From Actinomycetes bacterium (GTDB taxonomy: Bacteria > Planctomycetota > Phycisphaerae > JAACET01), in contig JAUXAG010000008.1 of the NCBI GenBank assembly GCA_030614915.1, forward strand, positions 1-64,000: a stretch of DNA of 64,000 nt, written 5' to 3'. Positions 819 through 20,541 of this stretch are shown piece after piece. Under the pieces are notes generated by a model, which was given only the letters and a program-made list of their open reading frames with translations, had not been told where the DNA came from and made no database searches. How positions within the stretch are numbered: position 1 is the first letter of the stretch; each line of letters begins with the position of its first letter. Position numbers and translations under genes: made by a program.

Positions 819-839
819 AGAACCGGCAAGAGGACGAAG

Positions 840-1268: not shown

Positions 1269-1292
1269 AAGAAGCCAAACGAGTAGAAAACC

Positions 1293-1739: not shown

Positions 1740-1775
1740 CGTCTGTCCCGAGTGCTGAGTGAAGGACAAGAAATC

Positions 1776-2969
1776 ATGAATGATCGGCGAATCATACCGA
1801 TAGGCCCGTATCATCCTCTGCAGGAGGAGCCGGAGCTGTTTCGGCTGGAGGTTGACGGTGAAACGGTAGTGGACCTGGACGTAGAGGTCGGCTGGAACCA
1901 CCGGGGTATCGAGAAGCTCTGCGAAACGAAGACCTACGATCAAGTACCTTTCGTGGTCGAGAGAATCTGCGGTATATGCTCGACCTCGCACCCGTTGGCC
2001 TATGTGCAGGCGGTGGAGGAAGCGGGGGATATCGAAGTCCCCGAGCGGGCTTTGTATATCCGAACGATTATCGCCGAACTGGAGCGAATCCACTCGCATC
2101 TGCTGTGGGTGGGCTTGGCGGGCCACTTTCTGGGTTACAATACGGTGTGGATGTGGAGCTGGAAATACCGCGAACCGGTATTGGACATCTGTGAAACGGT
2201 TACGGGCAATCGTAATCACTATGCGATGATGAAAGTGGGCGGTGTACGGCGGGATATTCTGCCCGAACACGTCGATTACATCCTGGAGCGAATACCCGAG
2301 CTAGTGAAATTCACGGACCTGATCAAAGGGGCAGTGCTTGATGACCCGGTCTTACACGCTCGGCTAAAGGGCGTCGGCGTAATGACCACCGAAGATATGC
2401 ACGAGTACGGGGGGGTTGGTCCGACATCGAGAGCCTCCGGCGTGCCGGGCGACGTCCGGCGGGATGATCCATACGCAGCCTATGGGCTGGTGGACTGGGA
2501 TGTAATTACTGCACCTTGGGGCGACGTATTCGCCAAGGCCGTAGTCCGGGTACTGGAGATGTACGAGTCGATAAGAATCGTCAAAGAGTGTCTGACGAAG
2601 ATGCCCGAGGGTGAAATCGACTCCAACCCCAAGACCGTACCCGCAGGAGAGGGGATCGGCCATCACGAGGCACCACGGGGCGAGGTCTTCCACTACGTGC
2701 GCTCGGACGGGACGAATCGGCCGATTCGGCACAAGATACGGGCCCCGACGTATATGAATCTGCCTACCTACAAGGCCTCGGTGGTGGGGGCGTCGATAAC
2801 CGATGCGACGATTATCCTGGCGGCTATCGATCCGTGCTACTGCTGCACGGAACGGATGGCAGTGTATAAACATAAGGGAGATCCCAGAGAGCCGATTATG
2901 ACCGGCGAGGACCTGGTAAGGCTCTCGCAAGAAAAGACGGCCAGACTGCGAAAGGAATTCGGCTTATGA
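1776..2969 (+). CDS. Group 4 [NiFe]-hydrogenase large subunit (MbhL/EchE-like)
   Basis: Both Ni-ligand motifs are intact: 'RICGICSTSHPLAYVQAVE' and C-terminal 'DPCYCCTERM'. ATG at 1776 preferred over the GTG at 1752 in the ORF track. Confidence 0.92.
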   Translation: MNDRRIIPIGPYHPLQEEPELFRLEVDGETVVDLDVEVGWNHRGIEKLCETKTYDQVPFVVERICGICSTSHPLAYVQAVEEAGDIEVPERALYIRTIIAELERIHSHLLWVGLAGHFLGYNTVWMWSWKYREPVLDICETVTGNRNHYAMMKVGGVRRDILPEHVDYILERIPELVKFTDLIKGAVLDDPVLHARLKGVGVMTTEDMHEYGGVGPTSRASGVPGDVRRDDPYAAYGLVDWDVITAPWGDVFAKAVVRVLEMYESIRIVKECLTKMPEGEIDSNPKTVPAGEGIGHHEAPRGEVFHYVRSDGTNRPIRHKIRAPTYMNLPTYKASVVGASITDATIILAAIDPCYCCTERMAVYKHKGDPREPIMTGEDLVRLSQEKTARLRKEFGL

Positions 2970-4843
2970 GCAATGAGCTACTACACGTGGTAGCTGTGCC
3001 GCTGGTGCTGGCGGGAATCGCCCATTTGCTGGGACGGCGGCTGAGTATATTGGCTCGACTGGTGGGCTTGGCCGGTACCGCTTTGACGCTGTGGCTTGGC
3101 GTTCGAGTCTGGTGGCTGGCGGCTGGAACGGCTGAGAAGGCGTCGTGGACCCTGCCCAATTGGCAATGGCTGGGAACTCTGCGCGACACGCCGGTGCTCC
3201 ACGTTGATGCCCTGAGCGGGTTTATGCTGGCGGCGGCGTGCTTGTTCGCTCTGTTGATAGTCATATACTCGCTGAGTTCGGTTAGGGGTAAGGAGCTGGC
3301 CAACGGGTATTTTTATGGGCATATACTTGCAGCATTGGCGGCGGCGGCCGGGGCATTGTTGGCCAATGATTTCGTAACCCTGGCTATCTTCTGGGGGTTC
3401 ATGGGTCTGCCGTTCTATTTGCTGATCAATATGGGCAAAGAGAACTGCGAGGCCGCGGGCAAGAAGATGTTCATCATCACCGGGGCGTCGGACTCGCTGC
3501 TGCTCTTGGGTATTGGTTTACTGCTGGCCAGCGGCCACAAGCTCGGATTGTATGGCGAGATTGCCACCTCGAATGCCGCAATGGCCGGTGCGTTTTTGTG
3601 CTTCTCGGCCGCGGCCTTCGCTAAGGCCGGTGGTATGCCGCTGCATTCGTGGATACCGGACGTGGCCGAGACGGCACCGGTTCCGGTGGTCGCATTTTTG
3701 CCGGCCTCGGTGGATAAACTGCTGGGCATCTACCTGTTGGCCCGAATCTCTCTGCATAGTTTTTCAATAACACCGGGCGGCTGGTTGAGCAGCCTGTTGA
3801 TGATCTTAGGAGCGATCACCATCGTCGCAGCAGTGACAATGGCCCTGATCCAGCATAATTTGCGGAGGCTGCTGGGCTTTCACGCGGTGAGCCAGGTGGG
3901 TTACATGATCCTGGGCATCGGCACCGGCAGCATCCTGGGTATAGCCGGTGGTGTGTTCCACATGCTCAACCACGCCATTTATAAGTCGTGTCTGTTTCTG
4001 ACGGCTGGGTCGGCTGAGCGTCGGGCGGGCACGGGGGAGTTGGACAAGATGGGCGGGTTATATAAGGCCTTGCCGGTAACTTTCCTGGCTGCGGTGATCG
4101 CGGCCTTGGCTATTTCGGGGATACCGCCGCTGAACGGTTTCTTCAGCAAATGGATGGTGTATCAGGCAGTCATCGAAATGGGGCAGACGACTGGCGGTTG
4201 GCTGTGGATAGTCTTGCTGGTGGCGGCGGTGTTCGGCAGTGCCTTGACGCTGGCCAGCTTCGTGAAGGTAATACATTCGGTTTTTCTGGGTCAGGAATAT
4301 AAAGGGCCGGAGAAGGCACCGGTCGGTCCCAAGGCTGGGCTGGGGATGCGGATAAGCATGGTGGTTCTGGCTGGGGCGTGCGTGGTCTTCGGTATCTGGG
4401 CGATGCAGCTTCCGCTGGGCAGGATGATCTTCCCGGCGACGGGGATCCCGACACAGTTGAGCATTTGGGAGCCGCAACTGGCTACAGGGCTGATCCTGTT
4501 GGCAATCGCGGCGGGTCTGGTTATCTATCTGCTGGGCACTGCGGTGAAGGTACGGCGGGACGACAGCTACGTAGGAGGGGCCGACGTAAGCGCCGAGCCG
4601 GATATGCGTTTCAGTGCCGCGGATTTCTACCAGACGATCTCCAAGGAGATGCCCGTACTGCGGCGGTTATACGTGCAGGCCGAGAAGAGCTGGTATGACT
4701 TCTACGCCCTGGGGCGAAGATTGATATTCTACGTCGGCGGCGGGCTGCGGGCCCTGCACTCGGGGCTGCTGCTGACCTACGTGGCCTGGTGCGTGCTGGG
4801 CCTGGTGGTGCTGCTGTGGTTATTCGTCTCGGCGAGTAAATAG
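2966..4843 (+). CDS. NuoL/MrpA/D-like antiporter subunit (complex I subunit 5 family)
   Basis: 'AETAPVPVVAFLPASVDKLLGIYLLARI', 'FHMLNHAIYKSCLFLTAGSAERRAGTGELDKMGGL'. Confidence 0.9.
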   Translation: MSNELLHVVAVPLVLAGIAHLLGRRLSILARLVGLAGTALTLWLGVRVWWLAAGTAEKASWTLPNWQWLGTLRDTPVLHVDALSGFMLAAACLFALLIVIYSLSSVRGKELANGYFYGHILAALAAAAGALLANDFVTLAIFWGFMGLPFYLLINMGKENCEAAGKKMFIITGASDSLLLLGIGLLLASGHKLGLYGEIATSNAAMAGAFLCFSAAAFAKAGGMPLHSWIPDVAETAPVPVVAFLPASVDKLLGIYLLARISLHSFSITPGGWLSSLLMILGAITIVAAVTMALIQHNLRRLLGFHAVSQVGYMILGIGTGSILGIAGGVFHMLNHAIYKSCLFLTAGSAERRAGTGELDKMGGLYKALPVTFLAAVIAALAISGIPPLNGFFSKWMVYQAVIEMGQTTGGWLWIVLLVAAVFGSALTLASFVKVIHSVFLGQEYKGPEKAPVGPKAGLGMRISMVVLAGACVVFGIWAMQLPLGRMIFPATGIPTQLSIWEPQLATGLILLAIAAGLVIYLLGTAVKVRRDDSYVGGADVSAEPDMRFSAADFYQTISKEMPVLRRLYVQAEKSWYDFYALGRRLIFYVGGGLRALHSGLLLTYVAWCVLGLVVLLWLFVSASK

Positions 4844-4866
4844 CAATACGATGGAGTAGGACGATA

Positions 4867-5403
4867 ATGGTTACAAACCTGCTGATTTTCCTGCTGCTGT
4901 TTATGATTATTGCGGCGGTGGCGGCTCTGCAGACCAAGAATCTGCTCTCGGCGGTGATATCCGTCGGAGCGGTGGGCTTCGGGGTGAGCGTGGCCTTTCT
5001 GCTGCTTCGAGCCCCGGACGTGGCTATCACCCAGATAGCGGTGGAGGTGCTGACCCTGCTGCTGCTGATCCGGGCGACCATCTGGCGGGGCGTACGAACG
5101 GTTTCGGGCCAACGAGAGGTCTTCGGCTCGGCGGTGGCGGTGGTACTGGTACTGCTGATTCTGCTGCTGGTCTTGCCCGTGTTCTCGGGGCTGTCGTTTG
5201 GCGTCGGGCCACAGATGGAGTTGGCGTCCAGCCATTACCTGCAACAGGGATTGAGCGAGACGGGCTCGGCGAATATCGTCACTGCGGTGCTGCTGGACTA
5301 CCGGGCTTACGACACCTTGGGTGAGGCTACAGTCTTGTTTACAGCCATTATCGGGGCCCTGGTGCTGATGCGTCAGCAGGCCCGCAAGCCCTTGGAGGAA
5401 TAA
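4867..5403 (+). CDS. MbhD/MbhE-like (DUF4040/MrpB-related) subunit
   Basis: 'LQTKNLLSAVISVGAVGFGVSVAFLLLRAPDVAITQIAVEVLTLLLLIRA'. Confidence 0.82.
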   Translation: MVTNLLIFLLLFMIIAAVAALQTKNLLSAVISVGAVGFGVSVAFLLLRAPDVAITQIAVEVLTLLLLIRATIWRGVRTVSGQREVFGSAVAVVLVLLILLLVLPVFSGLSFGVGPQMELASSHYLQQGLSETGSANIVTAVLLDYRAYDTLGEATVLFTAIIGALVLMRQQARKPLEE

Positions 5404-5405
5404 AG

Positions 5406-5882
5406 ATGACCGGTATGACGGTTATAGTCAAAACGGTAACCCGCTGGACGGCGGCCCTGATCTTTCTCTACGGGGCTTATGTGGTAGCCTACGGGCATCT
5501 GGGCCCCGGTGGAGGTTTTGCGGGGGGAGTGATCTTGGCCTGTGCTTACATCCTGATAACCCTGGCGTACGGTGGCGAACATGCCTTGCGTGTGCTGCCG
5601 CGGGCAGTGGCGTCTCGCCTGGACAGTTTTGGGGCCTTGGCCTTTTTGGCCTTGGCATTGGTGGGTATGGTCGGGGGCGGATTGTTCTTTACCAATTGGC
5701 TGCAGCAGAAGTGGGCAGGTAAGGCTTTCCACGTTTTCAATGGGGGGATTATTCCGCTGGCCAACGTGGCTATAGCCATAAAAGTATGCATGTCGTTGTT
5801 TTTGGTATTCTTTATTCTGTCCAGCGTGCGAATGTTCGGCAAAGATGAGCAAATAGACTTCCGCTCTAAAGAGGTGGACTGA
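5406..5882 (+). CDS. MnhB/MrpB-like subunit (MbhF)
   Basis: 'YGAYVVAYGHLGPGGGFAGGVILACAYILITLAYG' is the MnhB signature. Confidence 0.85.
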   Translation: MTGMTVIVKTVTRWTAALIFLYGAYVVAYGHLGPGGGFAGGVILACAYILITLAYGGEHALRVLPRAVASRLDSFGALAFLALALVGMVGGGLFFTNWLQQKWAGKAFHVFNGGIIPLANVAIAIKVCMSLFLVFFILSSVRMFGKDEQIDFRSKEVD

Positions 5883-6229
5883 TGATTTACGTATTGTGCC
5901 TGATCCTATTCCTGGTGGGGCTGTACGGCGTATTGAGCCAAAAGAACCTGATCAAGCTGATCATTGGTCTGGGGATCATGGAGTATGCGGTCAACATGTT
6001 TCTGATTATGGTGGGCTACCGCAAAGATGGCAAGGCGCCGATCATGGAAAGCGGGACGGGTCTGGATAAATTTCTCTCGGGGGCGGTGGATCCGCTGCCG
6101 CAGGCGATGGTACTGACAGCCATCGTGATCAACCTTGCCGTGCTGGCGTTGGCGATTGCCATAGCCATGCGGCTGTACCAGAAGTACGGGACGTATGACA
6201 TAACCGAGATCCGACGGCTGAGAGGATAA
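5882..6229 (+). CDS. NuoK/MrpC-like subunit (MbhG)
   Basis: Small 3-TM protein, '...DPLPQAMVLTAIVINLAVLALAIAIAMRLYQ'. Confidence 0.88.
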   Translation: MIYVLCLILFLVGLYGVLSQKNLIKLIIGLGIMEYAVNMFLIMVGYRKDGKAPIMESGTGLDKFLSGAVDPLPQAMVLTAIVINLAVLALAIAIAMRLYQKYGTYDITEIRRLRG

Positions 6230-6301
6230 AAGAAGGCTTGAGGCTGGAGGCTTGAGGCTGGAGGCAAGAAGAAGAAAGGCACAAAGGGGTAAATAAGAAA
6301 A

Positions 6302-6370
6302 GAAACCCCCGGTGGGCCCCCCAATCGCGAAATATCGCGATTGGGGACCCCTAAATCCGGGGGCTAAATA
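6302..6370. repeat. Nested palindromic repeat (GAAACCCCCGG ... CCGGGGGCTAAATA) inside the hydrogenase operon
   Basis: Outer arms CCCCCGG/CCGGGGG, inner hairpin CCCCAATCGCGA/TCGCGATTGGGG. Ends match the repeats near 53.1 and 56.15 kb. Confidence 0.8.
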
Positions 6371-6405
6371 AGGCAAAAGACGAGAAGAACAGGAAGCTTG
6401 AGCCA

Positions 6406-7944
6406 ATGAAAATCGATATTCAAACAATTCTGCCGCTGGCAATAGCCATACCGCTGGGGATGGGTTTTATTCTGCCTCTCTTGGGCAAGAAACTGACGCG
6501 GCTGGCGGACGTAGCGGCTAATCTGGCGACGGCGTCGCTGGTGTGCCTGTCGATAATCCTGCTGGTGGGGCGTCTGCAGGGTGGCGGAGCGGAAGTCTAT
6601 TGGATGGGCGGTTGGCGCATAACCGCCGGCGGAACGGTATTCGGTATCAATCTGGTGTTGGATGGGCTCAGCGCCCTTATGCTGGTGCTGGTGTCGGTGG
6701 TGAGCTTCGCGTCGACATTGTTCAGCAGCCGCTACATGGATCAATACACGGGGCGATCCAAGTATTACGGGCTGTTCATGCTGATGATAGCGGGAATGAA
6801 CGGCTGTGTGCTGACCGGGGATATGTTCAACCTGTTCGTATTCCTGGAGATTGCGGCGGTATCGAGCTATGCCTTGGTGGCCTTCGGCTGCGAGAGCGAC
6901 GAGCTGGAGGCTTCGTTCAAGTACCTGATTCTGGGCTGCGTGGCTTCGAGCTTTATCCTGCTGAGTATTGCCCTGCTGTACGCACAATTCGGGGCTCTAA
7001 ACATGGCCCAATTGGGCGAGCGGATGGCAGAGCTAGGGGTCAACAAGGGATCGCTGCTGGCCTTGATGATGCTGCTGGCGGGTCTGGGAGTAAAGGCGGC
7101 GCTGGTACCCTTTCACGCCTGGCTTCCTGATGCTCACCCGTCGGCGCCGGCGCCGATCTCGGCGATGCTCAGCGGGGTGCTGATCAAGGCCATCGGGGTT
7201 TACGCGATTATCAGAGTGGTCTTCAACGTTTATGGTTGGACCCCTGAGCTGGGGATGGCCCTGATGGTCCTGGGCACCTTATCGATGATCGTCGGCGGAG
7301 TGCTGGCCATGAGGCAGGGAGATTTCAAGCGGCTGTTGGCATACTCGAGTATCAGCCAGATCGGCTACGTGGTGCTGGCTATCGGGCTGGGGACGCCGCT
7401 GGGGATTCTGGCGGGTCTGTTCCACCTGGCGAACCACGCGATCTTCAAATCTTTGCTGTTCTTGACCTCCGGAGCGGTGCAGTACCGGACGGGGACGAGG
7501 CAGTTGGACGAGATGGGCGGGCTGGCTCAGAAAATGCCCATCACGGGCCGAACGTGTCTTGTGGGCTCGATGAGCATTGCCGGGATCCCGCCATTCAACG
7601 GATTCTTCAGCAAGCTGCTGATTATCATAGCCTGCGTGGCAGCGGGGCGCTGGGGATTTGCCCTGTGTGCGGTGATAATCAGTATCGTGACCTTGGCTTA
7701 CTTCCTGAAGGTGCAGAAGAACGCGTTCTACGGCAAGCTGAAAGACAAGTGGGCCCAGGTGCGCGAAGTGCCCCTGACTATGCAGTGCAGCATGGTGCTG
7801 CTGGCGGTTCTGTGCGTGGCGATGGGTCTGCTGTTGGTGCCTGGTCTGAGGGAGGCGGTTCTGGAACCAGCTCGAGACGCTTTGTATCAGGGAGTAAAAG
7901 GCTATCAAGAGGTGGTCATGACGTTGCTCGGTTCGGGCGGCTAA
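6406..7944 (+). CDS. NuoN/MrpD-like proton-translocating antiporter subunit (MbhH)
   Basis: 'LVPFHAWLPDAHPSAPAPISAMLSGVLIKAIGVYAIIRV', 'LLAYSSISQIGYVVLAIGLG'. Confidence 0.92.
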   Translation: MKIDIQTILPLAIAIPLGMGFILPLLGKKLTRLADVAANLATASLVCLSIILLVGRLQGGGAEVYWMGGWRITAGGTVFGINLVLDGLSALMLVLVSVVSFASTLFSSRYMDQYTGRSKYYGLFMLMIAGMNGCVLTGDMFNLFVFLEIAAVSSYALVAFGCESDELEASFKYLILGCVASSFILLSIALLYAQFGALNMAQLGERMAELGVNKGSLLALMMLLAGLGVKAALVPFHAWLPDAHPSAPAPISAMLSGVLIKAIGVYAIIRVVFNVYGWTPELGMALMVLGTLSMIVGGVLAMRQGDFKRLLAYSSISQIGYVVLAIGLGTPLGILAGLFHLANHAIFKSLLFLTSGAVQYRTGTRQLDEMGGLAQKMPITGRTCLVGSMSIAGIPPFNGFFSKLLIIIACVAAGRWGFALCAVIISIVTLAYFLKVQKNAFYGKLKDKWAQVREVPLTMQCSMVLLAVLCVAMGLLLVPGLREAVLEPARDALYQGVKGYQEVVMTLLGSGG

Positions 7945-7996
7945 AACAACTCGGCCGGAAGTGGCCGAGCAAGGCCCTAAATAGAGTGGAGCAATC

Positions 7997-8521
7997 ATGC
8001 GGCGAATAGTAATTTTCATAGTGAGCTATCTATTATGGTGTGGACTGGTCTGGCCTTACGACCAGAATCGTATAGGCACAGACGGGACGGCCTGGGACAC
8101 GGGGAGTTTGCTGCTGGGTTTGGGGGTGGCCCTGCTGGTGGCGATTCTGTTCGGGGGGGCGTTGACCAATAAGCCGAAGAATCTTTTCAACCCCCTGCAC
8201 ATTTTCTGGGTGATCGTCTATTTGCCGGTCTTTTTCTATTATTGCATCAAGGCCAATCTGCAGGTGATGTACCTGGTACTGCACCCGGATATGCCCATCA
8301 AGCCGGGAATCGTCAAGGTCAAAACCAAGCTCACCAGCGAGAGCGGGGTAACCGCCCTGGCAAACTCCATTACTCTTACGCCGGGAACGCTGACTGTCGA
8401 CGTGATAAATGACAATGAGCTCTACGTTCACTGGCTGGTGGTCGAAAGCGCCGAAGAGGATAAGGCTACCGAGATCATTGTCAACCGCTTCGAGTATTTC
8501 TTGGAAAAAATATTCGACTAA
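7997..8521 (+). CDS. MrpE/MnhE-like subunit (MbhA)
   Basis: '...IKPGIVKVKTKLTSESGVTALANSITLTPGTLTVDVINDNELYVHWL' is the MnhE core. Confidence 0.88.
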   Translation: MRRIVIFIVSYLLWCGLVWPYDQNRIGTDGTAWDTGSLLLGLGVALLVAILFGGALTNKPKNLFNPLHIFWVIVYLPVFFYYCIKANLQVMYLVLHPDMPIKPGIVKVKTKLTSESGVTALANSITLTPGTLTVDVINDNELYVHWLVVESAEEDKATEIIVNRFEYFLEKIFD

Positions 8522-8539
8522 TCCGGAGAGGACAGGCTA

Positions 8540-8815
8540 ATGAGCGGCTTTGAAGTGTTTCTGTATGTGGCCATAGTCGTGCTGATGATTTGTATTTACC
8601 TGTGCATGTATCGGATCAGCCGAGGACCTACCGCGCCGGACAGGACCGTGGCTATCGATATCCTGGGCGTAATCCTGGTGAGCTTCTGTGCGATCATGGC
8701 AATAATTACCAAACGGGACTTTTACATCACCCTGGCTATAGCCTGGGCTTTGCTGGCCTTTATCGGTACGGTGGGTTTGAGTAAGTACCTGGAAGGACGG
8801 GGCTTTGATGAGTGA
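8540..8815 (+). CDS. MrpF/MnhF-like subunit (MbhB)
   Basis: 'RISRGPTAPDRTVAIDILGV' is the MnhF core. Confidence 0.88.
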   Translation: MSGFEVFLYVAIVVLMICIYLCMYRISRGPTAPDRTVAIDILGVILVSFCAIMAIITKRDFYITLAIAWALLAFIGTVGLSKYLEGRGFDE

Positions 8816-9182
8816 AATTATAGCAGCGATTCTTATTGGCATTGGTGTGCTGTTCAACCTTTTCGGCTGTATAGGTCTGGTGCGTTTCCCGGACGTGTAC
8901 ACGCGTCTGCAGGCGGCAACCAAATGCGTAACCCTGGGGACGTGCCTGACGCTGGGTGGAGTAGCGATTTACGGCTTTGCGGGCGGTTTTGGGGCCATGG
9001 GGATGAAATCTCTGTTGTGTATCGGCTTTTTGGCGATTACAGCTCCGACGGCGGCCCACGCTCTGGCCCGGGGAGCATACAAATACGGCGTGAAACTCAA
9101 GGAACCTACGGTAGTGGACCTGTACCAGGAGGTCGAGCCGCAACCAACGAGTATCGAAGATGAAGAAACCGAAACTACGTGA
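8805..9182 (+). CDS. MrpG/MnhG-like subunit (MbhC)
   Basis: 'IGLVRFPDVYTRLQAATKCVTLGTCL' and '...LCIGFLAITAPTAAHALARGAYK'. Confidence 0.9.
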   Translation: MMSEIIAAILIGIGVLFNLFGCIGLVRFPDVYTRLQAATKCVTLGTCLTLGGVAIYGFAGGFGAMGMKSLLCIGFLAITAPTAAHALARGAYKYGVKLKEPTVVDLYQEVEPQPTSIEDEETETT

Positions 9183-9762
9183 ACTAGCCGAAGCGATCAA
9201 GGCGGTAATTGTCGGGCCTTATACGAGCAAGTTCCCTGCCGAAATGCCGGAGGTGCCGGAACGCTATCGGGGCAAGCCCTACTTCGACGAGAATGAATGT
9301 GTGGGCTGTGGGACCTGTGCCCTGGTGTGTCCGGCCAAGGCCATTACTATGGAAGAATCGGCCCAGACCAAGCTGCGCCGCATGATTTGCCGCTACGACA
9401 TGTGCATTTTCTGCGGGACCTGCCAGGTAAACTGCATTACGGAAAAGGGTATTACCCTGAGCCATGAGTTCGAGCTCTCGGCCTTGGATCGGGGGGATAT
9501 GCAAGAAGAGGTGGAAAAGGAAGTGCTCCTCTGCGAAGCCTGCGACGAGATCATCGGGGCTGTGGATCATATTAAGTGGGTAGCCAAGCGGCTGGGACCG
9601 CGGGCCTTCGGCAACCCGCTGCTGATGCTGACGAGCTTACAGTCGTTGGGGGCTGCAGACGAAATGCCGCGTATCGATAGGGAGCAGATTCCGCTACGGC
9701 GCGGCGACCGTATTCGAATTCTCTGCCCTAAATGTAGACAAGAGACCGCCCTGGTGGTATAA
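9160..9762 (+). CDS. 4Fe-4S ferredoxin-like hydrogenase subunit (MbhN/NuoI-like)
   Basis: Two CxxCxxCxxxC motifs (CVGCGTCALVCP, CIFCGTCQVNC) and overlap with the previous ORF. Confidence 0.9.
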   Translation: MKKPKLRELAEAIKAVIVGPYTSKFPAEMPEVPERYRGKPYFDENECVGCGTCALVCPAKAITMEESAQTKLRRMICRYDMCIFCGTCQVNCITEKGITLSHEFELSALDRGDMQEEVEKEVLLCEACDEIIGAVDHIKWVAKRLGPRAFGNPLLMLTSLQSLGAADEMPRIDREQIPLRRGDRIRILCPKCRQETALVV

Positions 9763-9808
9763 GGCGCTGCAATAGTTCAGAAGCCACAGTGTTGGGCGAA
9801 GGGAGGGG

Positions 9809-10309
9809 TTGTACCTTTTGTCTGCAGAAGATCTAAAGTCAAAATTACAAGCAAGACTCACGGGTAAGGTGGCGATCCTGTGCGTGGGCAGCCGGTCGCG
9901 GGGGGACGATATGTTCGGGCCATTAGTAGCCAGACGCATAGCCGGCAAGGTGGACGCTGAGGTAATCGATGCTGAGAATGTGCCGGAGAACTACCTGGGC
10001 AAGATTGCCAAGCTGGCCCCGGACGTGGTGCTGCTGATAGATTCGGCCCACTTCGGCGGCCAGGCCGGTGAGATCAGATTGCTGGACCCCCAGGAGCTGA
10101 ACGAGTCGAGCTTCAGCACACACAGCGCGTCGCTGAAACTCATCGAGGAGTATCTCCAGGCCCAGTGTCAGAGTAAGGTGATGCTGCTGGGGGCCCAGCC
10201 AAAGCACGTGCGCTTTGGGGAGCCGCCTTCGAAAGAGATGATTGGGGCGGTTGATCAGGTGTCGGGATTGCTGATGGATATACTTGGGGACCATCCGGTC
10301 CGTTCCTAA
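9809..10309 (+). CDS. Hydrogenase maturation endopeptidase, HycI-like
   Basis: 'VAILCVGSRSRGDDMFGPLVARRI...VIDAENVPENYLGKI...LIDSAHFGG'. TTG start preceded by GGGAGGGG. Confidence 0.88.
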   Translation: MYLLSAEDLKSKLQARLTGKVAILCVGSRSRGDDMFGPLVARRIAGKVDAEVIDAENVPENYLGKIAKLAPDVVLLIDSAHFGGQAGEIRLLDPQELNESSFSTHSASLKLIEEYLQAQCQSKVMLLGAQPKHVRFGEPPSKEMIGAVDQVSGLLMDILGDHPVRS

Positions 10310-11881: not shown

Positions 11882-14494
11882 TTAGTCCTCGGAATCCTGG
11901 ATCATACTGGCCAGGACGGCTAGGCGAACGGCCTTAACCTTACGATAGACCTGCTCGAATGGCCGTCGGACGCCGTAAACGGTGAGCAAATCCTCTATGC
12001 GGATGCCGAAAAGGTGTTCGTTTTCCTGTAAATAAGGCAGGATGAGATTCCAATCCTCCTCGGTGACGTTAGCGAACTCGCCGCCGTTGAGCTGCTCGTT
12101 GACCAGGCGGGCATGGGGGTCGCGTACATAAATGGCCCCGCCGGAAGCCATGCTGAAGAGGTTTGAGCCGGGGTAGGGGGTGGGCAGTTCCTCAAGGTTT
12201 CCACTCTGGTCAAGGCAGATGCCATTGAGGACCACGAAGCCGCCGCCGTTGAGGGGGTCGCCGGCCATGAAGGACTCGGCCAAGAAGTCGAGGCAGGTAC
12301 CGTTGATGACCACACGTGGTCGTCCGACGGCATTGATGAGCGGCCGGCCGGCAGCATTGCCCAGGACGTAGACTTCGCCGCCCTTGGCCCCGTACATGAA
12401 GGTCTGGCCGACGTCGCCGTGGACGACCAATTTGCCGGATTTGAGTATCTGGCCGAGTTGGTCCTGGGCGTTGCCGTGGACGTGAAGCTCCAGGCCGTCC
12501 ATGCCGCTGCCTAAATAGTCGCCGACGGAGCCGTAGGCGTCGATCCTGATGCCAGCCGTATCCGGGCCAAGGCCGCAGCCGAGGAAACGCTGGCCGGCAT
12601 AGTTGAAAGCAATAAAGCGCTTCCAGCCCAGTTCGGCAGCCCCGACCAACAAGCTGGCATCGCTTTGCGGACCCTCCGGCGGAAAATCATGGGCATCAAT
12701 GACCAGGACCTGCTCGCCATCGGCCGGTGGTCGCAGGCCCGAGGCGGTCCGGCAGTCAATAAGCTGAAAACGGCTGGTGCTCTGGTCGCTGATTTTAGGG
12801 GTAGCAAGCAAAATGTTGCGCAGCGTTTGGCGGATCCATTCCAGAACCGAGGCGGGCTTCTTGTTACCTACAGGGTACTTTCGATCGTTGAGCAGAGTCA
12901 GCAGCTCAAGGGCGGTTTGCTTGTGGTCGTCGCTGTTGGCCCGGTAGCCTTGGAGGGCCTGACAAAAGGCGGCCAGATTTTCAAAGGTCCAATCGGCAGT
13001 GCGCTCAACGGCCAATTCGAAGAGCTGGATGGCGGTATCGTCGCCAGGGGGTTCTGCGAGCAGTCGTTCGAGATGCTCATGGTCAATTGAGGTGGGCTTG
13101 GCCTTGCCGAAGCGGCACTGCTGGGCGGAAGGGATTTCTATGGGCCGAGCAAACTTGTCGGTGCAAATGAGTGTGGGCCCGGAGGCGTCGTTCTTGAGGG
13201 TGAAGATAAAGGCGCCTCCGTCGGTGTGGGAACCGCCGCGGGCGTTCCAGTAGCGGTCGGCAATGGGACTGAAACGCTCATCTTCGGCAGCTAAAGACTC
13301 TAGCGTGGCGTCGATGGCCTGCTTTTCGCTGGCAACCAGGCCGATCTGAACATCCCCATCCTGCAAGGCGAAGACCTGGGGGCGGAGCATGGCAGTATCG
13401 GTAATGCCGATCAGCTGGAATTGATTGTTGGCCGGATCGTTGCGGGCAATGATGAAGAACCATGGGCCGTCGGGTGAGCCGGCGATGTGGCTGGCCTGAA
13501 TGCGGCGATAAATCTTCTGCTTGGCCTGGGGCAGCAGGTCGAAATCCAACTCGGTGGTGGGGGCCAGGGCCTCGATGACATATTCGAGCGGATAGCCGTA
13601 AACTCGGGCAAGCAGATCGAAAAGCTGGACGCTGACCTCGGTGTCGGTCAGAAAGAGGGGCTCAATGTTGCGCTGGCGGAGGTAGTCGGTTACAGAGCGG
13701 TAGTTGGCAAAGTCGCCGTTGTGGACCAGAGCTTCGTTCAGTCCGATGAAAGGATGGGCGCCACCCGGGTGCCAGACGCGTCCCTTGGTGGGGTAACGCT
13801 GATGAGCGATCCAGAGATGGGCACGGAAGTCTTCGAGCTTGTAATACTGGGCGAGTTGCTCGGCATAGCCCACGATCTTGAGGATGAACATGTTTCGTCC
13901 GTGGCTGAGGACGAAGGCAGCCTTATCACCAAGGGAAGCGTAATAGCGCTTATTGAGCCGATAGCTGGTTTGATAAACAAACTCATCCTCCAGAGCTCGA
14001 TCGGATAGACCTTCCAGGCCGCGATCTTTGGCAAAACCTTCCAGAGCCTCCGGAGCCGGTCGAACAAAATAACGATAAACGGCGGGCGGCTCGGCATCTA
14101 AGCCAATATCGCGATAGTCATCGATCGTTGCTGCCCAGGCTTGATGGTCAATAGTATAACTGGGCTTAATAATCTCTCGTTCAACTTTCCGGCGCACCTG
14201 AGGCTGTAGATAAGCAACTTGTAGCAGATAATCGTTATCCAGGACTTCGCGCGACACGCCCAGCTTATCCGGATCGAAGCCGACGGCGGCGATGCCACCA
14301 CCTTTGCCGTTGCCCCGGTTGTGCATCTGCATGGACGGCGCGAAGATGTGGCGGCCGGATACGGGTACATTGCAGGCAAAGCCCACCACACCACAGCCGC
14401 CCTCCTCGGCTTGTTTAGCCGATGGGATTTGCCCGCTGCATAACCAGCGGCGGGAAGCGATGATCTGCTTGGCGTAATCAGTCATCGTGGGCAA
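11882..14494 (-). CDS. Glutamate-synthase-like protein: class II glutamine amidotransferase plus GXGXG domain
   Basis: 'GGCGVVGFACN', 'MQMHNRGNGKGGGIAAVGF', 'RYPTKGRVWHPGGAHPFIGLNEALVHNGDFANY'. C-terminal beta-helix 'LELHVHGNAQDQLGQILKSGKLVVHGDVGQTFMYGAKGGEVYVLGNAAGRPLIN'. Confidence 0.85.
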   Translation of the reverse strand: MPTMTDYAKQIIASRRWLCSGQIPSAKQAEEGGCGVVGFACNVPVSGRHIFAPSMQMHNRGNGKGGGIAAVGFDPDKLGVSREVLDNDYLLQVAYLQPQVRRKVEREIIKPSYTIDHQAWAATIDDYRDIGLDAEPPAVYRYFVRPAPEALEGFAKDRGLEGLSDRALEDEFVYQTSYRLNKRYYASLGDKAAFVLSHGRNMFILKIVGYAEQLAQYYKLEDFRAHLWIAHQRYPTKGRVWHPGGAHPFIGLNEALVHNGDFANYRSVTDYLRQRNIEPLFLTDTEVSVQLFDLLARVYGYPLEYVIEALAPTTELDFDLLPQAKQKIYRRIQASHIAGSPDGPWFFIIARNDPANNQFQLIGITDTAMLRPQVFALQDGDVQIGLVASEKQAIDATLESLAAEDERFSPIADRYWNARGGSHTDGGAFIFTLKNDASGPTLICTDKFARPIEIPSAQQCRFGKAKPTSIDHEHLERLLAEPPGDDTAIQLFELAVERTADWTFENLAAFCQALQGYRANSDDHKQTALELLTLLNDRKYPVGNKKPASVLEWIRQTLRNILLATPKISDQSTSRFQLIDCRTASGLRPPADGEQVLVIDAHDFPPEGPQSDASLLVGAAELGWKRFIAFNYAGQRFLGCGLGPDTAGIRIDAYGSVGDYLGSGMDGLELHVHGNAQDQLGQILKSGKLVVHGDVGQTFMYGAKGGEVYVLGNAAGRPLINAVGRPRVVINGTCLDFLAESFMAGDPLNGGGFVVLNGICLDQSGNLEELPTPYPGSNLFSMASGGAIYVRDPHARLVNEQLNGGEFANVTEEDWNLILPYLQENEHLFGIRIEDLLTVYGVRRPFEQVYRKVKAVRLAVLASMIQDSED

Positions 14495-15959
14495 GCTCCG
14501 AGGACTCGTAATCGAGGTGAGTGAGCAAGTCAGTTCGACCGACGAGTTCGGTGATGCTGGTCAAACCAAAACGAGCGAGTATCTGGCGCAACTGGCTGTT
14601 CCAGGCGTTGAATAGATTGAAAATCCTCTGGGCGCCCCATTCGGGGTCGAACTGCTGGGCCAATTCATCGTCGGTGGTAGCGATGCCGCGGGCACAGCCG
14701 CGGCCGGACTCGCAGGCCCCGCAGCGAATACAGCCCAGGGCCATCATGTCGGCGGTGCCGGTTACCACCCCATCGGCGCCCAAGGCAATGGCCTTGATAA
14801 TGTCGTGAGCGGAACGAATACCGCCGGAGGCGATGAAGGTCATCTTCTCGCGTACGCCCTCGTCCCGGAGAAAGCCGTGGACCTTGGGGATGGCGTACTC
14901 GATGGGCATGGCGATGTTCTTCTTAGCAATGTCGGGCGCCGCCCCGGTACCGCCATAGGAGCCGTCGAGGTGGATTACGTGGGCCCCGGCGTAATAGGAG
15001 CCGACGGCCACCATGTCCACGTCGGTGGGAGTGGAGACCTTGACACTGACCACGGCATCGGGGTTTATGGCCAGGATCCAATCGACGTGCTTTTTGTGGT
15101 CCTCGACGGAGTAGACACTGTGGAAAGGGAAGGGACTAAACAGGGCGCTGCCCTGGACGGCTTCGCGCATGCGGGCGACCGAGGCGGTAACTTTGTCGCC
15201 GAGGAGGTGTCCGCCCAGGCCGGGCTTGGCTCCCTGGGCATATTTGAACTCGACCATGCGGACTCGCTGGATGGTTTCTTCGCTGACGCCGAATAGGCCA
15301 GTAGCTACTTGGGTAATAACGTGATGATCGTAAGGATAGAGAACAGTGGGGTATCCGCCCTCACCGGTGCAGACCAAGGAGTTGAGGCTCGCAAAGGCGC
15401 GGGCCCGGGAAATCATGGTGGAGCTGCTGACCGAGCCGAAACTCATGCCGCCACCGTAGTATGGTACGCCGATGGTCAAGGGTTGGCCGTGCTGGCGGCG
15501 GTTCAGTGCAATGGACAGATCGACCTTGGCAGGATCGACCTTCTTGGCGGGTTTGTCTGGAAAACGCAGTCGCATGCGGTCAAAGCCGCCACCGGAATTT
15601 CCCAGATTGTAGCGGAGCTCGTCGGCGGCAGGGGTCCTTCCGCTGCGGGCCATTTCCCAGGTGTCGAGTATTAGTTCGGCGGGCCAACGGAAATCGCCGA
15701 GGGTGTTGAGCAAGGGATTGGCTCGAACGGTAATAGCGCCGGCAGGACAGGCCTGGACACATGCGAATTGGCCGGACTCGCAGGGGCCGGGGCAGAGCCA
15801 GTCGCGGGGGCGCAGGGCAAGTTTGTCAGTTACAGAGAATACGCCAGCAGGGCAGGTGCGCATGCAAGTGCCGCAGCGCGTACACAGGTCCGGGTCGCGG
15901 AGGATGATGTAGCGACCAATGGGGTTGCGAAAACGTTCTGGAGCTTCTTTGGCCTTCAT
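14478..15959 (-). CDS. GltB2-like FMN/Fe-S glutamate synthase domain protein with N-terminal ferredoxin domain
   Basis: 'LCTRCGTCMRTCPAG', 'YGGGMSFGSVSSSTMISRARAFASLNSLVCTGEGGYP', 'KPGLGGHLLGDKVTASVA', 'GGTGAAPDIAKKNIAMPIEYAI', 'GCIRCGACESGRGCARGIATTD'. Confidence 0.92.
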   Translation of the reverse strand: MKAKEAPERFRNPIGRYIILRDPDLCTRCGTCMRTCPAGVFSVTDKLALRPRDWLCPGPCESGQFACVQACPAGAITVRANPLLNTLGDFRWPAELILDTWEMARSGRTPAADELRYNLGNSGGGFDRMRLRFPDKPAKKVDPAKVDLSIALNRRQHGQPLTIGVPYYGGGMSFGSVSSSTMISRARAFASLNSLVCTGEGGYPTVLYPYDHHVITQVATGLFGVSEETIQRVRMVEFKYAQGAKPGLGGHLLGDKVTASVARMREAVQGSALFSPFPFHSVYSVEDHKKHVDWILAINPDAVVSVKVSTPTDVDMVAVGSYYAGAHVIHLDGSYGGTGAAPDIAKKNIAMPIEYAIPKVHGFLRDEGVREKMTFIASGGIRSAHDIIKAIALGADGVVTGTADMMALGCIRCGACESGRGCARGIATTDDELAQQFDPEWGAQRIFNLFNAWNSQLRQILARFGLTSITELVGRTDLLTHLDYESSELAHDD

Positions 15960-17428
15960 GGGGACTTTGCCTTTTCCTTTTCGTCTAGTCGTCGGCCAAA
16001 GATGGGCGCGAAACTTTCGCGTTCGAGGTCGCGGAAGAACATAGCCCGGCCGGACTCACCGCGGAGGCGACGGGCCTCGCGAAGGCCCATGGCCCCGAGG
16101 ACCTCAATAATCTGGGCGTGCCAGGAACCAAACAAGTTGATGATTCGCTGGCGGCTCCAGTCGAGCTCGACTGTGTCAATCCGGACGGGACAAGGCTGTC
16201 CGCGGCGACAATTCAGACAGACGCGGCACTGATTGGCCAACAATATCGGTATGTCCACGCCGGCTACATCGGCGCCGCAAATGATGATTTTGGCTACGTG
16301 CTCGGCCAGAGCAATTCCACCGGAGACGATGAGGCTGAGGGTATCGCGCAGGCCGGCACGGATGAGGGCCTCATGGACCTCGGCGACGGCATCGGTAACA
16401 AAGCGAGAGTCCCCAGGCGAGGCAACCTCGGGGCAAGAGTCGCCCCCGGCGGAACTCTGCAACTCTCGGCCCTGATAATCGGCATACAAGTGCAGGGCTT
16501 CGACGTCGGCCCGGGTAAGTTCGACGGCACGCTCGGCAATGCCGGGGGTAAGAGGCAGACGAACTATGACCACCGGTTCGCCGTTGGAACGAGCGGATAT
16601 TTTTTTGATCCGGGTGATGCGCTCGCACAGATCGACTGCGTCGTCTATCTCGACGGCCCGAACCTGACTGAGTAGCTCGGCGTAGGGCTCGAGGGATTCA
16701 CCCGCCCGGATATAGGGGACCATGTGGGCGGCAGTATCGCTGGGCCAGCCGTGCTCAGTGAGTTCACAGGCCAAGCGGACTGCTAATATGTCGAGCTGTT
16801 TGGCGGCCAAGGCGATGGCCTCGCTCAGAGACTCACCAACGGCACCGAAAGGAAGCAAATTGATGACGATGGGCAGCGACATATTAACGAGGGGATAATC
16901 GGGGCAGCTCAGATTGCCGGTCCGGTCGAAGGTGAGCCGGCTGGGCCTGCGCCCGATATCGACGGAGGCGTTTATGTACTCGCGTCCATGAATGCCGTCG
17001 CGGGTCGGCCGAACGATCTCGGACATATCGGTCCAGATCTGGTCGAATCCGGGGCCTGTGAATGGGCCGGTATATCCGGACCCGCTGACGGGAACTCTGC
17101 CGTCCTTGGCCTGGGACCAGATGGCGTCGATAATTCGCGGTCTCCAGTAGGCATCGCCCATAGTCTCGAACTCGGGGTTGGTCTGGCGGGAGAACAGAAC
17201 CCTCTTGCACTGTTGAACGCACCAGAGGCAGTTGCGGCAAAGAGAGTCCGCAGAGTCGCGAAGCTGCTCGGGGCTGTAACCGCCAAGTTTGAAGACGTCG
17301 TAGATACACTGGCGCTTGACGCAGTCCAGGCAGCCCAGGCAACCGTCTCGCTCTATAGCAATACGAGGTCCGGGTGAAATAAACCGATCGGCGACCGGCT
17401 CGACAATTATGTGATACCTAGCGGGCAT
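15956..17428 (-). CDS. Divergent GltB2-like paralog with two N-terminal Fe-S motifs
   Basis: 'CLGCLDCVKRQCIYDVF', 'CRNCLWCVQQCKRVLFSRQTNPEFETMGDAYWRPRIIDAIWSQAKDGRVPVSG' parallels the GltB2 architecture, and C-terminal 'CRVCLNCRRGQPCPVRIDTVE' keeps the Cys cluster. Start refined to the ATG at 17428. Confidence 0.75.
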   Translation of the reverse strand: MPARYHIIVEPVADRFISPGPRIAIERDGCLGCLDCVKRQCIYDVFKLGGYSPEQLRDSADSLCRNCLWCVQQCKRVLFSRQTNPEFETMGDAYWRPRIIDAIWSQAKDGRVPVSGSGYTGPFTGPGFDQIWTDMSEIVRPTRDGIHGREYINASVDIGRRPSRLTFDRTGNLSCPDYPLVNMSLPIVINLLPFGAVGESLSEAIALAAKQLDILAVRLACELTEHGWPSDTAAHMVPYIRAGESLEPYAELLSQVRAVEIDDAVDLCERITRIKKISARSNGEPVVIVRLPLTPGIAERAVELTRADVEALHLYADYQGRELQSSAGGDSCPEVASPGDSRFVTDAVAEVHEALIRAGLRDTLSLIVSGGIALAEHVAKIIICGADVAGVDIPILLANQCRVCLNCRRGQPCPVRIDTVELDWSRQRIINLFGSWHAQIIEVLGAMGLREARRLRGESGRAMFFRDLERESFAPIFGRRLDEKEKAKSP

Positions 17429-17429
17429 A

Positions 17430-18377
17430 CTAGCTGGCCTCTCCGCTGGCAGGACGCGGCAAGAGATCAGCCCGCTTGACGATCTCGGGAATAAGGTGCT
17501 CGGCCTCGATGGCCTGGATGTGCACGCCGCGGACACCCTCGATAGCCTTAACCTGCTCTATGAGCTCGACGGTAACCTTCAAACCTTCCTCTTTGCGATC
17601 GGATGCCTGGTCCATTCTTTCGATAAGTTCGTCGGGCACGGTTACGCCGGCGACATTCTTATTCATGTATCTGAGCATCCCGGCGGACTTGGGCACGATA
17701 ATTCCAGCCAAGATGGCGACTTTTTCGTGTAGGCCTTCGTTGCGGACGAGTTTCATCTGCTCGGCAAAACGGGACACCTCGAAGATGGACTGGGTCTGGA
17801 TGAACTGGGCACCGGCAGCGACCTTCTTGGCCAGGCGGATTACGCGGAAGTCGATCGGATCACCCAGCGGGGTCCAGGCGGCGCCGATCAGCATGTCGGG
17901 AGCTACGGTAACGGAATCGCCGCCCTGCTGGAGCGACTTATCCCGCAGGTCGCGGATGATGCTCAGCAGTTGGACCGAATCAATATCGTAAACGTTCTTG
18001 GCCCCGGGATGGCCGTGGAGCTTACCGGCCGCGCCGAAAGATTGATGGTCTCCGGAGAGGCAGAGGCAGTTACGAATGCCCAGAGCGGCAGCTCCGAGGA
18101 TGTCGGACTGGATGGCGATGCGGTTGCGGTCGCGACAAACCATCTGCATGACCGGCTCTAGACCCTCGGCCAAAAGGATGGCACTGGCAGCAATGCTGCT
18201 CATGCGGACCACGGCGGTCTGGTTGTCGGTAACGTTGTAGGCGTCGCAACATCCGCGAAGGATGTCGGCCTTGGCCTTTAGGGCCTGGGCATCGGCGCCG
18301 GTGGGTGGGCCGACCTCGCCGGTCACGGCAAAATGGCCAGCGGAGAGGACTCGTTGTAAATTGCTGGTAGAACTCAT
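17430..18377 (-). CDS. metF: Methylenetetrahydrofolate reductase (MetF family)
   Basis: 'FAVTGEVGPPTGADAQAL...AYNVTDNQTAVVRMSSIAASAILL...QMVCRDRNRIAIQSDILGAAALGIRNCLCLSGDH'. Confidence 0.92.
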   Translation of the reverse strand: MSSTSNLQRVLSAGHFAVTGEVGPPTGADAQALKAKADILRGCCDAYNVTDNQTAVVRMSSIAASAILLAEGLEPVMQMVCRDRNRIAIQSDILGAAALGIRNCLCLSGDHQSFGAAGKLHGHPGAKNVYDIDSVQLLSIIRDLRDKSLQQGGDSVTVAPDMLIGAAWTPLGDPIDFRVIRLAKKVAAGAQFIQTQSIFEVSRFAEQMKLVRNEGLHEKVAILAGIIVPKSAGMLRYMNKNVAGVTVPDELIERMDQASDRKEEGLKVTVELIEQVKAIEGVRGVHIQAIEAEHLIPEIVKRADLLPRPASGEAS

Positions 18378-19042
18378 TCCTCAACGTCCTCCACAACAAC
18401 GCGACGTGGGCCGCCATCCCGGCTGGTTGACCAGTCCCTGGGGGGGGTGTTTTCCCTAAGGGTGTCCAGCTGGTTCATGGCCTTGAGCCGTTCGATAATC
18501 AGGTGCCAGGCACAATCGAGCTCGGGGTCGATCTCGCATTTGCCGTCGGTTGAGCCGCCGCAGGGGCCATTCTGGAGGCTCTTGGCGCAGCGGGCTATGG
18601 GACAGATTCCAGCGGTGCGATCGATAGTGCAATCACCACAGGCAGCACATCGCTCGAGCCACAGGCCGGGCTTTTCCCGATGGCCCAGGAAGACCGTGTT
18701 GACGCCGGGGATGATGGGCTTGGGCTCGAAGCGGTCCCACATGCAGGCAACGCCCACGCCGCAAGCCAGGGAAACGACGACGTCGGCAGCCTCGACCTGC
18801 GGGGCGATTTCCTCGATGAGTTCCCACTCGCACTGGCGGTCGGCGGTAACTTCGGCGACTTGAGCTTGACAGCCTCGCAGGCGCAGGGCCATGCGCAGAG
18901 CGCTGGCGGTGATGGCGACCTCTTTCTCACCGCCGGCCATGCACTCGGCTACACAGGTGGCGCAGCCGGCTACGAGAATTTTCTCGTAGTTGGTGAGCTT
19001 GTCGGCAATTTCGTTTATGTCTTTGGCTTGGGCAACAATCAT
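18374..19042 (-). CDS. metV: MTHFR C-terminal domain / MetV-like zinc/Fe-S protein
   Basis: Cys-rich 'GCATCVAECMAGGEKEV...WLERCAACGDCTIDRTAGICPIARCAKSLQNGPCGG'. 4-bp overlap with metF. Confidence 0.87.
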   Translation of the reverse strand: MIVAQAKDINEIADKLTNYEKILVAGCATCVAECMAGGEKEVAITASALRMALRLRGCQAQVAEVTADRQCEWELIEEIAPQVEAADVVVSLACGVGVACMWDRFEPKPIIPGVNTVFLGHREKPGLWLERCAACGDCTIDRTAGICPIARCAKSLQNGPCGGSTDGKCEIDPELDCAWHLIIERLKAMNQLDTLRENTPPRDWSTSRDGGPRRVVVEDVEE

Positions 19043-19488
19043 TTTACACCTACGGTTTTCAAAGGACTTTTTCCAAGTTCGACGAGCCGGCCGGTGGCCT
19101 CCCTCAGGGCCTTGTCCAGGGCATCAGGGTCGTTGGGGTCCAAGGATTGCAGGAAGACCCGCTGGCCGCCTACAGCGATCTGCTCGAGGATTCGTCGGGC
19201 CCGCTCGATGCGTTTGGCAGCCCGGATGCAGCCGCGCCCGAAGCGACAGGAATCTTGGGGACAGGTCCAGAGGGCCACCCCATCGGCGCCGGTCTCCAGG
19301 GCCCGGAGGACATGAAGGACCTCAATCTTACTGGAGCAGGCCAACTGGGCCAGGCGGACTCTAACCCTATCCACCTCGAAAGGGGCTTTGGACAGCTCTG
19401 CGGCCTTGGCAGAACTGTTGGCACAACAAAAGGCAACGAGATGTAACCCGTTGCCCTGGCCGACGGGGGCAATTTTATTGACCGACAT
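19039..19488 (-). CDS. MvhD-like hydrogenase/heterodisulfide reductase-associated Fe-S subunit
   Basis: 'LVAFCCANSSAKAAEL...VRLAQLACSSKIEVLHVLRALETGADGVALWTCPQDSCRFGRGCIRAAKRI'. Confidence 0.85.
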   Translation of the reverse strand: MSVNKIAPVGQGNGLHLVAFCCANSSAKAAELSKAPFEVDRVRVRLAQLACSSKIEVLHVLRALETGADGVALWTCPQDSCRFGRGCIRAAKRIERARRILEQIAVGGQRVFLQSLDPNDPDALDKALREATGRLVELGKSPLKTVGVK

Positions 19489-19599: not shown

Positions 19600-20541
19600 T
19601 TAGTAGTGCAATTTGCCGATCTTGAGGCGTAATAGCCGCTGGGCAGTAACCATCATGACGGCGGCGGCCATGGAGAGCATCTTCGATTCGGCTGAATCCG
19701 CTCGGCTGGTCAAGACCACGGGGGTAGCGGCGCCGACCAGGACGCCGGCCAAGCGATAATGACCTAAGTAAACCAAGGACTTGGCCAGCATGTTGCCAGC
19801 CTCGATGTTGGGGACCATGAGGATGTCGGCCAAGCCGGCAACCGGCCCGGTAATGCCCTTGTGCTTGGCGGCAATCTGGGAGATAGCATTATCGAGGGCG
19901 AAGGGGCCGCCAATTACGACCTCGGGGCGAAATTGGCTGCGCTGACTCATTTTGGCCAAGACGGCGGCATCGAGGGTGGCGGGCATGTTGGGATTGACCA
20001 ACTCGACGGCGCCCAAGACGGCGACCTTGGGCTTTGTGATGCCAAAAAGATTGGCCAAGTGAACGGCGTTGAGAATTATCTCGGCCTTTTGCTGAAGATC
20101 GGGGGCGATGTTCATAGCCCCATCGGTAATGAAAAGGAACCTGTCAAACTCAGGGACCTCAATGACAAAAACGTGACTCATGACCACGCCGGTGCGCAGG
20201 CCGCCTTCGCGCTGGAGGACGGCCCGGAGATAATCGTCGGTGTGTAGGTAGCCCTTCATGACGATGTCGGCCTTTCCGCTGGCGGTGAGGGAAACGGCCC
20301 GAGAGGCGGCCCGGATATCGTCGGGCTCGTCAATGACGTCCTTGGCCTCGAGGGGGAAATTGATTTCGGCGGCCTTTTGCAAAATGCCCTCCTTGCGGCC
20401 GATAAGGATGGTTCGGGCGATGTTGGCCTGGCGGGCTAAGTGGGCGGCTTCGATGACACTATGGTCGTCAGCGGCGGCGACGGCGATGGTGCAAACCGGC
20501 TTGTCCTTGATGAGATCGAGCAACTGGTCGAAGTTCTTCAT
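19600..20541 (-). CDS. Phosphate butyryl/acetyltransferase (Ptb-like)
   Basis: 'MKGYLHTDDYLRAVLQREGGLRTGVVMSHVFVIEV...FLFITDGAMNIAPDLQQKAEIILNAV'. Start refined to the ATG at 20541; the upstream extension of the ORF is not protein-like. Confidence 0.9.
   Translation of the reverse strand: MKNFDQLLDLIKDKPVCTIAVAAADDHSVIEAAHLARQANIARTILIGRKEGILQKAAEINFPLEAKDVIDEPDDIRAASRAVSLTASGKADIVMKGYLHTDDYLRAVLQREGGLRTGVVMSHVFVIEVPEFDRFLFITDGAMNIAPDLQQKAEIILNAVHLANLFGITKPKVAVLGAVELVNPNMPATLDAAVLAKMSQRSQFRPEVVIGGPFALDNAISQIAAKHKGITGPVAGLADILMVPNIEAGNMLAKSLVYLGHYRLAGVLVGAATPVVLTSRADSAESKMLSMAAAVMMVTAQRLLRLKIGKLHY

Follow-up and report, generated by a model that had tools for sequence, protein, structure and literature searches.

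A widespread operon joining MvhD and MetVF homologues to a predicted glutamate synthase suggests that carbon and nitrogen metabolism are linked directly by electron transfer

Introduction

Glutamate synthase (GOGAT) catalyses the reaction glutamine + 2-oxoglutarate + 2 e- -> 2 glutamate and is a main entry of ammonia into biomass, with NAD(P)H or ferredoxin thought to be the electron donor. Here we compare with described systems a six-gene operon on the minus strand of contig JAUXAG010000008.1 (positions 11882-19488), part of a genome assigned to Phycisphaerae in GTDB; the whole stretch of 64,000 nucleotides (nt) that was analysed is referred to as the window. The operon encodes homologues of MvhD, MetV and MetF together with three glutamate synthase-like proteins. 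With the NADPH-dependent GltBD of Azospirillum and the ferredoxin-dependent GlsF of Synechocystis it has in common the N-terminal cysteine of the glutamine amidotransferase (GAT) domain, the lysine and arginine for 2-oxoglutarate in the FMN domain, and the GXGXG domain. Unlike these enzymes, it has split genes, no GltD partner, an MvhD and an extra, apparently dead copy of GltB2 (hereafter DIV, for divergent), as well as a four-cysteine motif (CxxCxxCx5C) instead of the three-cysteine [3Fe-4S] site and two predicted N-terminal ferredoxin clusters. Glutamate synthases with an unconventional input subunit have likewise been proposed from gene clusters in anaerobic methanotrophic (ANME) archaea, where the putative F420-dependent enzymes of the FrhB10 clusters would use FrhB (PMC9012536), whereas the input subunit of the present operon would be MvhD-MetVF.

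Methylene-tetrahydrofolate (methylene-THF) reductases of the MetVF kind have been sorted into types I-IV by their partners, and purified type II enzymes do not use NAD(P)H (PMC8760232). In the type III enzyme MetVF-RnfC2 of Acetobacterium woodii, MetVF is likewise co-encoded with an electron-transfer partner, in that case an NADH-binding RnfC-like protein (PMC8760232). The type IV enzyme HdrCBA-MvhD-MetVF of Moorella thermoacetica and Sporomusa ovata shares with the operon the MvhD, MetV and MetF families and MvhD as mediator; in S. ovata pulldowns, MvhD binds MetF, HdrA and HdrB, and HdrA is bound by MetV and MetF (PMC9430772). The operon differs from it in containing neither HdrABC nor a bifurcating flavoprotein, in encoding what appears to be a complete GOGAT instead, and in having an MvhD from a separate clade. 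No description of MvhD or MetVF combined with glutamate synthase was found in the searchable open-access literature, in agreement with a preliminary description of this DNA that knew of no complex of such composition. The operon suggests an undescribed direct electron link of carbon (one-carbon (C1)/folate) with nitrogen metabolism.

A conserved six-gene operon

The operon comprises the following genes, given in order of transcription:

19039-19488, minus strand: mvhD (FlpD family); Pfam FlpD 1.8e-24, PDB matches to F420-non-reducing hydrogenase D subunits
18374-19042, minus strand: metV; Pfam DUF5981 (MetV C-terminus) 7e-38
17430-18377, minus strand: metF; Pfam MTHFR 9e-36
15956-17428, minus strand: DIV (divergent GltB2-like); Pfam Glu_synthase 3e-16, a weak match to the C-terminal half only
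14478-15959, minus strand: GltB2; Pfam Glu_synthase 1.7e-90
11882-14485 (ATG start) or 11882-14494 (TTG start), minus strand: GAT+GXGXG protein; Pfam GXGXG (PF01493) 9.2e-16, GATase_6 2.4e-5

Overlaps of 4 nt join mvhD to metV, metV to metF and DIV to GltB2, the gap between metF and DIV is 1 nt, and the overlap of GltB2 with the GAT gene amounts to 17 nt if the TTG at 14494 is the start codon and to 8 nt if it is the ATG at 14485. Open reading frame (ORF) coordinates and Pfam searches agree throughout with the six genes, order, spacing and families given in the preliminary description, which is also correct on the absence of HdrA: none of the six is an hdr gene.

When GTDB genomes were scanned, 15 loci with a close DIV homologue (41-70% identity) were recovered; the labels of their records include Desulfobacterales, Syntrophaceae, Chloroflexi and Phycisphaerae. 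Among 398 genomes sampled from the phylum to which a Desulfobacteraceae metagenome-assembled genome (MAG) belongs, 103 contain DIV (E <= 1e-60). In the window's own phylum it was detected in 7 of 399 genomes, three of these seven holding only distant copies and no MvhD. The flanking DNA of about 100 DIV loci, which are non-independent samples and in many cases derive from MAGs, was scored with family profiles; 84 loci, including the window, had enough upstream sequence for the genes before DIV to be scored. In these, mvhD precedes DIV in 71 cases and mvhD-metV-metF in 44, the remaining sets being mvhD alone (15), mvhD and metV (8), mvhD and metF (4), or no MvhD (13). GltB2 follows DIV in 86/86 loci and GAT in 84/86. 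Where both metV and metF are present they overlap in 45 of 49 pairs, and in 40 of the 49 the overlap measures exactly 4 nt. With the same order found again in dozens of genomes, the six-gene arrangement goes far beyond chance and is a widespread conserved operon, present in anaerobic bacteria of several phyla. The association would have been cast into doubt, according to the preliminary description, by its loss in relatives; it is instead conserved across phyla.

Genes of nitrogen metabolism are found in the same operons: an upstream glnA on the same strand is seen in 27 loci (MetVF is present in 8 of these), amtB and glnK accompany some DIV operons, and hisHF, purF or a glutamate dehydrogenase (named from its sequence) accompany others. 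The connection of C1 flux to glutamate and ammonia metabolism that had been proposed at the outset fits the occurrence of glnA, amtB and glnK.

A predicted glutamate synthase core without GltD

The GAT+GXGXG protein is a class II glutamine amidotransferase fused to a GXGXG beta-helix domain (Pfam). Its predicted N-terminal nucleophile, Cys31, is present in 84/84 sequences and the class II motifs HNGDF and TDTE are conserved; the 30-residue leader would be removed by cleavage. GltB2 aligns with the FMN domain of Azospirillum GltS (hhalign 2e-54), and its K245 and R265 are invariant (96/96). By position, these residues match the 2-oxoglutarate ligands of the Synechocystis enzyme, Lys972 and Arg992. 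Cysteines 410, 413, 416 and 422 of GltB2 are conserved in 94/96 sequences and do not form the canonical three-cysteine [3Fe-4S] site. Since CxxCxxCx5C replaces the usual GltS site in both DIV and GltB2, a [4Fe-4S] cluster is likely there, that is, a variant of the site rather than its absence.

Three hallmarks of GOGAT are encoded, namely the class II GAT cysteine, an FMN domain with the 2-oxoglutarate lysine and arginine, and the GXGXG domain. GltD, which would indicate an NADPH-dependent enzyme, is not encoded in the operon. Judged by these residues, the operon core is a complete and intact putative glutamate synthase without GltD. The window's genome contains a single true GltB2, that of this operon, and one glutamine synthetase. 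Elsewhere in this genome, Fer4_20 matches fall in an Nfn-type pair of PyrK-like and GltD-like proteins, in the insert of an HdrA, in two large proteins of ~1050-1080 aa, and in a protein of 527 aa encoded next to a NuoF-like gene; the clearest GltD-like protein is the one paired with the PyrK-like gene, in the fashion of NfnAB.

A GltB2 paralogue that has lost the 2-oxoglutarate site

DIV is clearly related to GltB2 (profile alignment, hhalign 1.4e-68) and lacks the 44-residue stretch that carries the 2-oxoglutarate lysine and arginine in GltB2, as well as the GEGG and GGTG motifs. It retains the barrel GG together with 8 N-terminal and 4 C-terminal cysteines, each conserved in 94-105 of 105 sequences and arranged as a pair of ferredoxin-type 4Fe-4S motifs and, at the C-terminus, a four-cysteine site, and it carries a near-invariant signature of its own, WTDMSEIVRPTRDGIHGRE. 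DIV can be described, on these residues, as a CATALYTICALLY dead GltB2 copy. The loss of the 2-oxoglutarate site with retention of the Fe-S cysteines makes it probable that DIV serves as an electron relay. DIV and GltB2 form one polypeptide in 22 loci, which argues for the two working side by side.

Foldseek searches with models of DIV and of the fusion returned FMN and related barrels and GltS. The match of the fused model to whole GltS raised the idea of DIV as a canonical GltS central domain, which we do not claim; in profile searches DIV matches the GltS central domain weakly (E 1e-4), compared with 1e-13 for the FMN domain. A role of DIV as a stand-in for HdrA is also rejected, since DIV is a GltB2 paralogue devoid of HdrA-type flavin domains.

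These findings bear on the earlier suggestion that the operon specifies a bifurcating methylene-THF reductase, in which GltB-like proteins would take the place of HdrA and electrons would be split between methylene-THF and a low-potential acceptor. The gene set does parallel the hexaheteromeric Moorella enzyme, in which MvhD-MetVF is joined by three further subunits (PMC9430772, PMC8760232). However, none of the six proteins is a flavoprotein of the HdrA, EtfAB, NfnB or NuoF/HydB type, much of the GltB2 barrel segment is lost from DIV, and a Moorella-type HdrA with a GltD insert is encoded separately in the genome. No bifurcation is known for GltB2 FMN domains. Electron bifurcation is accordingly rejected for want of a bifurcating flavoprotein among the six proteins, and this reading as a whole appears very improbable. 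The three proteins are better described as a predicted full GOGAT with its own MvhD, for which MetVF is optional, than as a substitute for HdrA, which has its own MetVF-MvhD cluster.

MvhD, a predicted dedicated carrier

The cluster cysteines of MvhD (Cys22, 51, 76 and 81) are conserved in 88/88 GOGAT-linked copies. All 88 fall on one side of a single branch and 12 other sequences, mostly Hdr-linked, fall apart from them; support for this branch is 59, or 96 with one sequence set aside, in trees made by a quick maximum-likelihood method with a small Hdr-linked reference set. This suggests that MvhD is a dedicated, glutamate synthase-linked [2Fe-2S] carrier subunit, and a link between MvhD and the GOGAT core is very probable. 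On the corresponding trees, MetF requires 4 changes for 55 linked sequences and MetV 5 for 59. A single branch for MvhD as against 4-5 changes for its neighbours indicates that MvhD probably joined once, and that MetVF was gained or lost a few times.

MetV and MetF

MetV keeps 11 cysteines in 98% or more of its copies, and Cys34 is retained in 93%, as expected of the predicted Fe-S (by family also zinc) subunit of a MetVF-type methylene-THF reductase. MetF has intact E21 (present in 54/55 operon copies), D110 (50/53) and Q196 (51/55), the equivalents of Glu28, Asp120 and Gln183 in the E. coli enzyme. With the MetF active site and the MetV Fe-S/Zn cysteines both present, the pair belongs with MetVF methylene-THF reductases of types II-IV; HdrA, HdrB and HdrC, which characterise type IV, are not encoded with MetVF-MvhD at the operon. 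A degenerate MetF kept for structure or for NADH input only is not supported, given the intact folate residues and the failure of purified type II MetVF enzymes to use NAD(P)H (PMC8760232).

The window's genome also contains a separate folD-metV-metF-hdrA-mvhD cluster (locus L054, 7998-18465, contig C13), whose HdrA of 1483 aa bears a GltD insert as in Moorella, and acetyl-CoA synthase is present. The existence of this cluster makes it probable that the operon MetVF is not the catabolic copy. A MetF-family gene was found elsewhere in 30/30 DIV genomes tested, picked mostly for operons without metF, and MetV in 20/20.

MetV or MetF occurs in 56 of the 71 loci with MvhD and in none of the 13 without it (Fisher p 6e-8, kinship ignored). 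Such dependence on MvhD bears on another interpretation, in which an MvhD-dependent GOGAT and an ordinary MetVF would merely be co-encoded for amino-acid biosynthesis and exchange no electrons. Retention of the MvhD-GOGAT core without MetVF in 15 loci is in keeping with such co-regulation, as is the fact that MetVF genes elsewhere adjoin other C1 genes (PMC9012536). The restriction of MetV and MetF to loci with MvhD, their placement between mvhD and DIV, the recurrent 4-nt metV/metF overlap, and the known functional pairing of MvhD and MetVF in enzymes of type IV (PMC9430772) all speak against it, and we consider it improbable.

A series of glnA-mvhD-metV-DIV-GltB2 operons retains metV without metF (L128, L129, L131, L134, L144, L145, L150, L152 and L155). 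The MetV cysteines are almost all intact there, and MetV without MetF may act as an electron adaptor.

A model for electron flow

The best overall explanation, held with fair confidence, is that MetVF docks via MvhD and exchanges electrons with the glutamate synthase. GOGAT would be fed through MvhD in place of an NAD(P)H-oxidising GltD: the GAT domain would free ammonia from glutamine, GltB2 would reduce 2-iminoglutarate on FMN, the GXGXG domain would complete the fold, and DIV, with its 12 Fe-S cysteines, would pass electrons from the [2Fe-2S] cluster of MvhD on to the cofactors of GltB2, namely its Fe-S clusters and FMN. MvhD is a mediator of electrons between Fe-S proteins and a partner, and its Fe-S neighbour here is DIV. 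MetV and MetF would dock on MvhD as in Moorella-type complexes, so that the methylene-THF reductase becomes an extra redox module on GOGAT; that MetVF swaps electrons with the core seems probable.

The direction of transfer is the weakest step, as methylene-THF could just as well be a second sink. The likeliest course would be oxidation of methyl-THF by MetF, with electrons passing from the MetF flavin through the Fe-S clusters of MetV to MvhD, DIV and finally GltB2. For the reductive amination of 2-oxoglutarate by glutamine, we estimate a potential of about -50 to -120 mV. As the methylene/methyl-THF couple is more negative (E0' = -200 mV; PMC8760232), methyl-THF oxidation could drive glutamate formation without NADH or ferredoxin, and a weak reductant would then pay for glutamate synthesis. 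We put forward methyl-THF as the net donor tentatively, and with more reserve still the full picture of one six-subunit, methyl-THF-driven glutamate synthase, wired through the dead GltB2 copy, in Wood-Ljungdahl bacteria of several phyla.

Several points weigh against this model. In acetogens, methylene-THF itself takes up electrons, and MetVF could thus act as a sink here instead of supplying them. The 15 loci with MvhD and GOGAT but neither MetV nor MetF imply that MetVF is not needed for GOGAT, and in 8 loci MetV is present and MetF absent. The AlphaFold models have modest confidence, with a predicted local distance difference test (pLDDT) score of 72 for DIV and 66 for the DIV-GltB2 fusion. 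Furthermore, purified MetVF runs on reduced ferredoxin in vitro (PMC8760232).

This last result would also suit a hub with two outlets, in which ferredoxin, a hydrogenase, a formate dehydrogenase or an Hdr complex charges MvhD and DIV, while GltB2, making glutamate, and MetVF, making methyl-THF for use in methionine formation and biosynthesis, both act as acceptors. In other systems MvhD is the connection between HdrA and a hydrogenase or formate dehydrogenase (PMC12054007, PMC5736913), DIV and GltB2 have ferredoxin-type clusters, HdrA homologues flank 13 DIV loci, and the window itself holds a membrane-bound hydrogenase (MBH) operon. Yet genes for hydrogenase, formate dehydrogenase and Hdr are all missing from the six-gene operon, and loci lacking MvhD often have an FAD-linked oxidase, a likely donor, before DIV; the hub appears rather unlikely. 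The occurrence of other oxidoreductase genes before DIV where MvhD is absent suggests that this position is an electron-input slot.

The oxidase in question (~616 aa, with C-terminal Fer4_8 motifs; one copy checked with Pfam) directly precedes DIV-GltB2-GAT in eight MvhD-less loci (L181-L185, L072, L076 and L180), and is a possible second type of electron input.

If GOGAT is indeed fed by MvhD in so many bacteria, the costing of nitrogen assimilation would have to be altered for energy-limited anaerobes such as sulfate reducers and acetogens. If MetVF in turn feeds GOGAT, C1 flux and nitrogen assimilation would be wired together directly, with no diffusing cofactor. The operon would also offer a new set of partners for MetVF, whose physiological electron partner in acetogenesis has been in question.

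Neighbouring genes and related loci

Directly upstream of mvhD in the window lies a phosphate butyryltransferase-like gene (19600-20532, minus strand), an order repeated in a locus of a genus-mate (L028). The MBH-type (Mrp-fused) [NiFe] hydrogenase operon occupies positions 99-10309 on the plus strand and encodes NADHdh, homologues of the 20, 30 and 49 kDa subunits, MbhD/E, two antiporter subunits, MNHE, a Fer4 protein and a HycI maturation protease. In locus L059 (1808-19000), the GOGAT operon abuts a NuoE/NuoF/2Fe-2S-MvhD-MetV-HdrA cluster, and the whole may be a superoperon linked to NADH and Hdr. A further GltB-like family, with a KWGQGAK motif and a weak Glu_synthase match, was noted at L056 5194-6783, L033 6628-8223 and L037 9700-11283; its gene stands beside NuoF/NuoG-like genes in L056 and near a DIV operon in the two other genomes.

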